Virus record (IMG/VR): IMGVR_UViG_3300033994_001756
Span: 62,001-126,000 of that record
Source of the DNA: a virus
Direction: 5' to 3' (one strand)
DNA: 64,000 bases
The notes below the pieces were generated by a model. The model did no database searches. It saw only the letters and a program-made list of their open reading frames with translations, and was not told where the DNA came from. Below, piece by piece: positions 14,166 through 39,742 of the stretch (position 1 is the first letter of the stretch; each line of letters begins with the position of its first letter). The position numbers and the translations under genes are program-made.

Positions 14166-14195
14166 TAGGTTTCTCCTTAATTTTTAGGCTAAAGA

Positions 14196-14239
14196 GCGTT
14201 CCTTCAGTCGGCTTTTGCGTCCTCTATGAGGATGAACGA
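14196..14239 (-). promoter_or_regulatory. Putative glutamine riboswitch aptamer, proximal copy (downstream-peptide motif)
   Basis: Read on the minus strand: CGTTCAT, a short hairpin CCTC-ATA-GAGG, then ACGCAAAAGCCGACT, GAA, and GGAACG which pairs with the first CGTTC. This layout, followed by a very short ORF, is that of the downstream-peptide/glnA class of cyanobacterial glutamine riboswitches as I remember it. Confidence 0.68.
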
Positions 14240-14240
14240 T

Positions 14241-35812: not shown

Positions 35813-35886
35813 GACTCAGTAGCTCAGTTGGATAGAGCATCTGCCTTCTAAGCAGTTGGTCGGGGGTTCAAGTCCCTCCTGAGTCG
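35813..35886 (+). tRNA. tRNA-Arg (TCT)
   Basis: 74 nt cloverleaf: acceptor GACTCAG/CTGAGTC, D-arm GCTC/GAGC, anticodon loop CTTCTAA, T-arm GGGGG-TTCAAGT-CCCTC, discriminator G. Reads AGA, a codon frequent in the AT-rich phage genes. Confidence 0.95.
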
Positions 35887-36786: not shown

Positions 36787-36824
36787 ACCCCTCAAGCCTA
36801 TCGACGATGCTCAAACAGAGGGGT
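36787..36824 (+). other. Stem-loop before tRNA-Gly
   Basis: ACCCCTC (36787-36793) pairs with GAGGGGT (36818-36824) around a 24-nt loop. It has no T-run, so it looks more like a processing or spacing element than a terminator. Confidence 0.45.
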
Positions 36825-37236: not shown

Positions 37237-37308
37237 CCTCTGTTAGTCTATTGGTAAGGACAGGCAGACAATGCACTTGGAAACTGGGTTCGATTCCCAG
37301 CCAGAGGT
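37237..37308 (+). tRNA. Degenerate tRNA-like sequence
   Basis: D-arm (GTCT-ATTGGTAA-GGAC), a perfect T-arm (CTGGG-TTCGATT-CCCAG) and six acceptor pairs (CCTCTG/CAGAGG) are present, but the 22 nt between D- and T-stems cannot form a proper anticodon stem with T33. It looks like a decayed or rearranged tRNA gene; the anticodon is undetermined. Confidence 0.45.
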
Positions 37309-37309
37309 A

Positions 37310-37535
37310 CTAAGAGCCCTAGACTGATAAACTAGAATGCTGTAGTAAAGGGTGCAACAAGGAACGTTGTATTAAACAAAGGATCCCCTCGGCCACATCG
37401 TAGATTTTATCGTAGGTGGACATTCTTGCCCTTAAAAATCGTAGGTGCCAAAACCTCTCGCTGGTCTAGTATTCTGTGGCTGGATGAAGTAAAGAGGGAT
37501 AACATAGGCAAAGTTATTCCCACCTACCACAATTT
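37310..37535. other. Non-coding stretch between tRNA-like sequence and HNH gene
   Basis: 226 bp with no credible ORF. It contains several pairing segments: CAAC/GTTG around an AAGGAAC loop, GGGATAAC/GTTATTCCC near 37497-37522, and complementary strings CTAGAC (37319-37324) and GTCTAG that could form a long-range contact; the string TCGTAGGTG occurs twice. It may be an RNA or remnant of an insertion; I could not assign a family, and typical group I intron core strings were not found. Confidence 0.4.
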
Positions 37536-37865
37536 TTATCTATGATACATAGATAAGTCAGAGTGAATTTCACGATGACAATTAGCACAGACAAGAATGC
37601 ATTTTTTTGCTTCCTCTCTTTGCTTTGCTAAAGATGCGGTGGAACCAATAATTCCACCTTCTTTAGCATCTGGGTCTACATGATGAAACTCTAGTGCTGC
37701 CGTGCATTTGTTGTATCCACACATACAGCATTTTCCTCCAGCTTCTTCTTTAATTAAAGATACATTTTTTCTTCTAGTTGCAGATACTCTTTCTGTCATT
37801 TTTTTAGCCCAGTTAGGATTTTTTGCTTTTCTATCAGCATAAGTTCTAGTTTCTTTTTTATTCAT
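37536..37865 (-). CDS. HNH homing-type endonuclease
   Basis: 109 residues on the minus strand. The basic N-terminus (Y-A-D-R-K-A-K-N-P-N-W) is followed by an HNH domain: K-C-C-M-C-G (about 45-50), A-L-E-F-H-H-V-D-P near 59-67, then C-I-L-V-C-A-N-C-H-R-E-I-H near 90-102. The two CxxC pairs bind zinc and the H-H...N...H residues bind the catalytic metal. It lies between a degenerate tRNA and an interrupted tRNA-Asn, 47 bp from the latter, which suggests a free-standing homing endonuclease active at tRNA loci. Confidence 0.88.
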   Translation of the reverse strand: MNKKETRTYADRKAKNPNWAKKMTERVSATRRKNVSLIKEEAGGKCCMCGYNKCTAALEFHHVDPDAKEGGIIGSTASLAKQREEAKKCILVCANCHREIHSDLSMYHR

Positions 37866-37912
37866 GTTGGTATAACTTTTTAAATTAATACCAACTATTT
37901 ATTCCCCTGTAG

Positions 37913-38020
37913 CTCAATGGCAGAGCAATCGGCTGTGGAAAAGAAGGTTCCTTTAGTTCTGGTTCGATTCCAGTTTTTTCCTTAACCGATGGGTTATAGG
38001 TTCAAGTCCTATCGGGGGAG
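37913..38020 (+). tRNA. tRNA-Asn (GTT) interrupted by a 46-nt insert in the anticodon loop
   Basis: Without bases 37937-37982 the sequence is a perfect tRNA-Asn: acceptor TCCCCTG/CGGGGGA, D-arm GCTC/GAGC, anticodon arm ATCGG-CTGTTAA-CCGAT, T-arm ATAGG-TTCAAGT-CCTAT, discriminator G as in bacterial tRNA-Asn. The insert splits the loop (CTGT / TAA) and contains its own T-arm (CTGG-TTCGATT-CCAG) and an end-to-end stem GGAAAA/TTTTCC. Whether the gene is functional is unknown. Confidence 0.72.
37937..37982 (+). other. tRNA-like insert inside tRNA-Asn
   Basis: 46 nt. GGAAAA (37937-37942) can pair with TTTTCC (37976-37981); AAGG/CCTT forms a small internal hairpin; CTGG-TTCGATT-CCAG is a standard T-arm. 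It looks like a D-arm-less and anticodon-arm-less tRNA remnant. The exact boundary can shift by one T. Confidence 0.6.
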
Positions 38021-39591: not shown

Positions 39592-39631
39592 CTTAAAAAT
39601 TACCCTGGTGGAGTCAACATGACCCAAATAG

Positions 39632-39689
39632 TCCTCGTCGGATTGGACAGTAAATATGCCGACTGGTGCGGATGAGGAGTGCTTACTCC
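39632..39689 (+). other. Alternative hairpins upstream of the porin promoter
   Basis: Within the 254-bp gap before the porin, TCCTC (39632-39636) plus TCGG can pair with CCGA (39659-39662) plus GAGGA (39674-39678); alternatively GGAGT (39676-39680) pairs with ACTCC (39685-39689). The two pairings exclude each other, as in an attenuator. No RNA family recognised, no credible ORF longer than 18 codons. Confidence 0.4.
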
Positions 39690-39742
39690 CGCCTGGTTTC
39701 TTGCCTCCAGTCAAAGGGCAAGTGGCGAGCCTGCAAAGGGGG

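Follow-up and report, generated by a model that had tools for sequence, protein, structure and literature searches.

Introns have been described in tRNA genes of the Lak megaphages. In the accessible part of the original report, they are termed "enigmatic", one of them possibly encodes a tRNA, and no mechanism is proposed for them (Devoto et al. 2019; PMC6784885). A later Lak paper mentions tRNA introns in its methods only, and we found no mechanism for such introns in a literature search that took in few subscription papers. In Lak-A1 and Lak-C1, we read tRNA-like inserts in tRNA-Asn, at positions 35/36, and in two other tRNAs. The locus analysed here resembles them in that a phage tRNA gene is split in its anticodon loop, at 35/36, by an insert that has a tRNA-like part and whose removal restores the tRNA.

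A split tRNA-Asn gene and its insert

The DNA that we analysed (the window, 64,000 nt) corresponds to positions 62001-126000 of a 172-kb virus record, and ARAGORN places its tRNA cluster at about 34.4-44.5 kb. In the tRNA-Asn(GTT) gene at 37903-38020, a 46-nt insert (37937-37982) separates anticodon positions 35 and 36. The features of the locus, and two further RNA elements of the window, are the following.

37536-37865, - strand: ORF for a predicted HNH endonuclease (109 aa), PHROG 2255; divergent from the split tRNA, with the start codon 37 bp upstream
37903-37936, + strand: 5' exon of tRNA-Asn(GTT), with loop CTGT up to position 35; same as in the intron-less alleles L360-L363
37903-37909, + strand: 5' exon, acceptor 5' strand
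37912-37926, + strand: 5' exon, D-arm
37928-37932, + strand: 5' exon, anticodon stem strand
37937-37982, + strand: tRNA-like insert, 46 nt, between positions 35/36; missing from L360-L363 and syntenic relatives
37937-37943, + strand: insert, acceptor-like 5' strand GGAAAAG, 7/7 pairs with 37975-37981
37944-37957, + strand: insert, linker replacing the D and anticodon arms, with a D-loop-like GG at 37946-37947
37958-37974, + strand: insert, T-arm TCTGG-TTCGATT-CCAGT, 4/5 pairs
37975-37982, + strand: insert, acceptor-like 3' strand TTTTTCC, then a lone unpaired T at the place of N73
37983-38020, + strand: 3' exon of tRNA-Asn(GTT), opening with loop TAA; same as in the intron-less alleles
37986-37990, + strand: 3' exon, anticodon stem strand
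37991-37995, + strand: 3' exon, variable region
37996-38012, + strand: 3' exon, T-arm
38013-38019, + strand: 3' exon, acceptor 3' strand, followed by discriminator G at 38020
39629-39736, + strand: wcaG RNA (RF01761)
14193-14240, - strand: glutamine riboswitch (RF01739)

Without the insert, every stem of the tRNA-Asn is paired (acceptor 7/7, TCCCCTG/CGGGGGA; D 4/4, GCTC/GAGC; anticodon 5/5, ATCGG/CCGAT; T 5/5, ATAGG/CCTAT), the loop joins CTGT to TAA, and the discriminator is G. This bears out the initial annotation, made from the letters of the DNA, which had stated that excising 37937-37982 gives a complete tRNA-Asn(GTT) with this discriminator; its start of the gene at 37913 has to be moved 10 nt further out, to 37903. 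Default ARAGORN calls no tRNA at the split locus. With introns allowed, it makes a single call in the window, which is this locus, read as His(gtg) containing an intron of 46 nt; this misreading of the unspliced loop had been foreseen. With the Rfam tRNA model, whose threshold is 29 bits, the unspliced locus reaches 19.8. tRNA scanners thus miss or misname such split genes, the present one being either missed or called His.

The insert reads GGAAAAG-AAGGTTCCTTTAGT-TCTGG-TTCGATT-CCAGT-TTTTTCC-T. Its ends had been described as pairing through GGAAAA/TTTTCC; the pairing is real, but the stem is 7 bp long (GGAAAAG/TTTTTCC) and not only 6. This acceptor-like stem is flush with the first base of the insert and leaves one unpaired 3' base behind it. 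The T-arm that had been attributed to the insert is likewise present, with one mismatch in its stem. Both ends of the insert fall where the 5' and 3' ends of a tRNA are processed, on an acceptor/T stack of 12 bp (7 + 5 positions). The GG of the linker is nearly invariant in 14 other mini-tRNA inserts, in an alignment that excluded the insert of the window.

In the RNAfold structure of the unspliced RNA, all outer stems are kept, and the insert forms 8 bp + 4 bp (12 bp) with a 7-nt T-loop. The folding energies are ordinary (z of -1.17 and -0.25), so energy alone proves nothing. A random 46-mer of the same composition has a chance of about 2e-7 of forming a flush mini-tRNA, and no nested match appeared in ten simulated windows of 64 kb. 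Judged by its sequence, the insert is a minimal tRNA.

Alleles of the gene and the adjoining HNH endonuclease

We found the same split gene in three other contigs (L002/L025, L003/L013 and L004/L015). The split tRNA is identical there over 118/118 positions or carries one mismatch, which lies in the 3' exon of L003, and the insert is 46/46 identical in all three. In L025/L002, the neighbouring genes are about 84-87% identical alongside the 118/118 identity of the split tRNA; recent homing, instead of selection, could be the cause of this identity. Uninterrupted alleles, which the initial annotation had proposed to look for in related cyanophages, also exist, in divergent phages. L360-L363 carry the same tRNA-Asn with exons that are 72/72 identical, while their longest shared neighbouring stretch is ~75% identical to that of the window. 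Because these intron-less alleles exist, the boundary of the insert is fixed except for one repeated T.

The syntenic relatives L014, L022-L024, L026, L029 and L032 have an intact tRNA-Asn(GTT) in the same place and lack the HNH gene, which is present in L002, L003 and L004. Thus, the HNH gene and the split tRNA appear to act as one cassette that replaces the resident tRNA-Asn. In a related cyanophage, L031, tRNA-Arg(TCT) is interrupted at 35/36 by a mini-tRNA of 44 nt. Without this insert, its tRNA-Arg is identical over 74 nt to the intact tRNA-Arg of the window (35813-35886), and matches in the flanks are 73 to 90% identical.

The HNH ORF contains the motif CANCHREIH and matches the PHROG 2255 HNH endonuclease at 4.1e-23; no Pfam match was found at 1e-3. 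The initial annotation had set the gene 47 bp away, but since its start codon is at 37865 and the tRNA gene starts at 37903, the gap is 37 bp. The hint that this gene is relevant fared better. One HNH family, whose members share the signature of the HNH protein of the window (CxxCGYNKC...ALEFHH.DP..KE...KCILVCANCHREIH or close variants), occurs within 1 kb of 7/28 independent intron loci as compared to 39/1,693 intact tRNAs on the same contigs, among the matches listed (Fisher p 5e-6; 6e-5 with one dropped). This over-representation suggests that homing by the predicted endonuclease is the probable means by which the interrupted allele spreads.

The surroundings of the locus hold further RNA elements. 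The tRNA-His(atg) that ARAGORN calls at 37237-37308 has a mismatched anticodon stem and no U33, and it scores only 29.3 bits with the Rfam tRNA model. The relative L002 has the same anticodon arm though the neighbouring genes diverge, and the element may be an RNA that resembles a tRNA without being one. Directly after it lies a strongly conserved non-coding stretch (37309-37535), of whose first 127 nt 110 match L025 at 97% identity. It is found in part in other cyanophages such as S-PM2, its second half is missing from L003, and an Rfam scan at E<=1 gave nothing for it; S-CREM1 has a manA RNA annotated at a comparable site between tRNAs. An abiF sRNA match (36788-36824; RF03085, 48.6 bits) lies between an ORF and tRNA-Gly, in the same order as in S-CREM1.

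Recurrence of tRNA-like inserts in other phages

We scanned IMG/VR and one genome per bacterial and archaeal species for two T-arms lying closer together than tandem tRNAs allow and then applied a strict scorer of the outer tRNA. The scans selected for nested T-arms, and the counts of tRNA-like inserts are thus lower bounds. In these collections, tRNA-like inserts of 43-696 nt interrupt at least about 25 further tRNAs of phages; contigs assigned to bacterial MAGs hold at least three more (L344, L348 and L351). Among the matches listed, the insertion site is nearly always 35/36, with a few at 34/35. Mini-tRNA inserts of 43-54 nt interrupt Arg, Thr, Lys, Glu, Ile, CAT, and Asn tRNAs, and a 64-nt form is found in L258. 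Inserts that combine a hairpin with a tRNA-like part measure about 65-148 nt, and the longer inserts of L216 (696 nt) and L271 (509 nt) are less certain. In L216 (3767-4526), the tRNA halves stand 696 nt apart and the insert ends in another tRNA, possibly a far larger nested insert.

Complete tRNAs also serve as inserts: L158/L320 carry a tRNA-Phe inside tRNA-Arg, and L118 holds another case. The anticodon loop of tRNA-Arg(UCU) contains the complete tRNA-Phe at 4972-5121 of L158 and 2025-2174 of L320; the inner 3' end keeps CCA in L320 and reads CCC in L158. The inserts of L118, L162, L186, and L320 encode CCA exactly after N73.

The 5' half of the outer tRNA was found for 19/110 pattern loci as compared to 1/547 mismatched controls, among the matches listed. 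A reversed-sequence control gave no match but says little, since the T-loop motif is lost on reversal. Acceptor strands of the mini-tRNAs came out of register in a MAFFT alignment, and we therefore used a permutation test and not a covariance model. On loci that had not been selected for inner pairing, 85/98 inner acceptor positions paired, against 52.5 +/- 3.8 after permutation (0/20,000 as high). Because tRNA-shaped inserts recur in many unrelated viruses, they are probably a little-studied class of intron.

Several matches were set aside. When the split-Asn pattern was loosened, six chance matches (L007-L012) came up besides the true ones, and many nested T-arm matches are a tRNA followed by an orphan 3' half, which we excluded from the counts. 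Such halves stand directly after phage tRNAs (e.g., L233, L241 and L260) with no 5' half found nearby, and could be fragments or trans-split tRNAs. Three Bacteroidota chromosomes (L343, L350 and L353) were also excluded; repeated tRNA-like stretches lie there beside an integrase-like reading frame and look like duplications of attachment sites. Four intron-bearing tRNAs searched in isolate phages had no match.

Proposed excision, alternatives, and known systems

We propose that the insert is a minimal-tRNA intron that tRNA enzymes excise, a ligase joins, and HNH homing spreads. In this model, the insert would form a tRNA elbow and acceptor stem of its own, so that RNase P would cut its 5' end and a 3'-tRNA enzyme its 3' end (RNase Z, or a trimming activity for inserts that encode CCA). 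Bacterial RNase P recognizes the tRNA elbow along with the 12-bp stack of acceptor and T stems, and its upstream product ends in a 3'-OH; RNase Z cuts after position 73, and its downstream product begins with a 5'-phosphate. After both cuts, the 5' exon would thus end in a 3'-OH and the 3' exon would begin with a 5'-phosphate, and the two exons would stay together as a tRNA nicked in its anticodon loop. T4 Rnl1 joins such ends in anticodon loops, and a phage RNA ligase, here most likely of the Rnl1 type, would seal the nick to give tRNA-Asn(GTT). The adjoining HNH endonuclease would spread the interrupted allele, with the intron shielding the invaded copy from cutting.

The initial annotation had held that phages lack splicing enzymes for short introns. 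This is incomplete: the genome encodes two RNA ligases, one of the Rnl1 type (PF09511, 5e-28, with T4_Rnl1_C) and one matching PF09414+PF21189, and to our knowledge tRNA-end-processing enzymes are present in every host. Rnl1 appears to be uncommon in cyanophages; among the best 30 isolate matches to this Rnl1, Synechococcus phage B23 is the sole cyanophage and the nearest (55% identity). We predicted that B23 carries a nested tRNA, and it has none; its genome contains an undetermined 110-nt tRNA (L359, 20408-20517) whose insert, roughly 38 nt long, does not resemble a tRNA. Ligases were not enriched in carriers, with about 7/18 large records as compared to 11/27 tRNA-rich controls, although many of the records compared are fragmentary and the controls may contain introns that escaped notice. 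In several large carriers, a search for three ligase families found none.

From sequence, a real tRNA-like intron with functional exons is highly likely, and splicing of the split tRNA in RNA quite likely. For excision by RNase P, RNase Z, and ligase, we see about an even chance, since ligases are not commoner in carriers and hairpin-type inserts need an extra cut. The proposal as a whole we regard as moderately likely. Its generalization, in which phages splice tRNAs by an undescribed way, widespread and HNH-spread, where the intron is a tRNA, end-processing enzymes cut it out, and a ligase rejoins the exons, is put forward tentatively, a little short of evens.

Cutting by RNase P alone does not account for the preference for 35/36. 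The site is nearly always the same whatever the insert, which would fit a dedicated phage or host endonuclease, e.g., an anticodon-loop nuclease, that cuts at 35/36 while the fold serves stability, recognition, or mobility. Many inserts, moreover, open with an extra hairpin (L215, L222, L243, L266, and Lak), and because this hairpin precedes the tRNA-like part, RNase P acting at the tRNA-like 5' end is insufficient for them. However, both ends of the mini-tRNA inserts lie at tRNA processing points, some with CCA, and we identified no candidate for such an endonuclease. We consider this route unlikely.

Of the two options in the initial annotation, a nested gene with unusual processing is favored, and a dead gene is disfavored. 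A tRNA broken by recombination or homing might persist as a pseudogene, or as a shield from the HNH nuclease, with no product; the adjoining HNH gene fits this, and recent spread could account for the sequence identity. Yet the exons are perfectly paired and the same as in intron-less alleles, both here and in the tRNA-Arg of L031. The split form is kept in other contigs, the same architecture with conserved inner pairing recurs at the same position in many unrelated phages, and the genome has no tRNA-Asn other than the split gene. Thus, the split gene is not an artifact, and death of the gene is improbable. The complete tRNAs found as inserts (L158/L320 and L118) make it plausible that an inner tRNA is released, and the mini-tRNA could then be the product of interest, a decoy or small tRNA-like RNA, with the outer tRNA as a mere carrier that is not rejoined. 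But inner sequences vary widely and have lost the anticodon arm while the outer tRNAs remain complete, which argues that the outer tRNA is the selected product and makes release of the inner one as the purpose very improbable. Group I introns are the known anticodon-loop introns of bacterial tRNAs, but descent from these or another self-splicing intron is hardly credible. As the initial annotation had recognized, 46 nt is far too short for a group I intron and for its catalytic core; the Rfam scan of the window gave no group I match, and a scan of the locus at E<=1 matched the tRNA model alone.

A minimal-tRNA intron removed by tRNA enzymes and a ligase, our preferred reading, would share with archaeal and eukaryotic tRNA introns a short intron in the anticodon loop and removal without self-splicing. 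Those introns lie at 37/38, whereas the present insert lies at 35/36 and ends at tRNA processing points; the RNAfold structure of the precursor has no obvious bulge-helix-bulge. Group I introns of bacterial tRNAs likewise interrupt the anticodon loop and are linked to homing endonucleases, but the insert is far too short and has no ribozyme core. In the T4 Pnkp/Rnl1 repair system, Rnl1 likewise rejoins a tRNA broken in its anticodon loop, and this genome encodes an Rnl1-type protein; in T4, a host anticodon nuclease makes the break, while here the proposed maker is tRNA processing of the nested tRNA. If splicing is confirmed, phages would have tRNA introns that proteins help to remove and that belong neither to group I nor to the archaeal/eukaryotic types, phage RNA ligases would gain a role beyond repair, and homing endonucleases would gain a new cargo.

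The Lak inserts consist of a leading hairpin and a longer tRNA-like part, whereas the insert of the window is a bare 46-nt acceptor and T-arm with exact tRNA ends, in a cyanophage gene that adjoins an HNH gene. No leading hairpin precedes its tRNA-like part. Because the acceptor strand begins the insert directly, it is not the Lak form but a new minimal variant of Lak-kind tRNA-like introns. The oddity of this locus and the published Lak puzzle thereby fall into one class, whose members share the 35/36 site, exons that are intact, and a tRNA-like insert that ends as a tRNA does.
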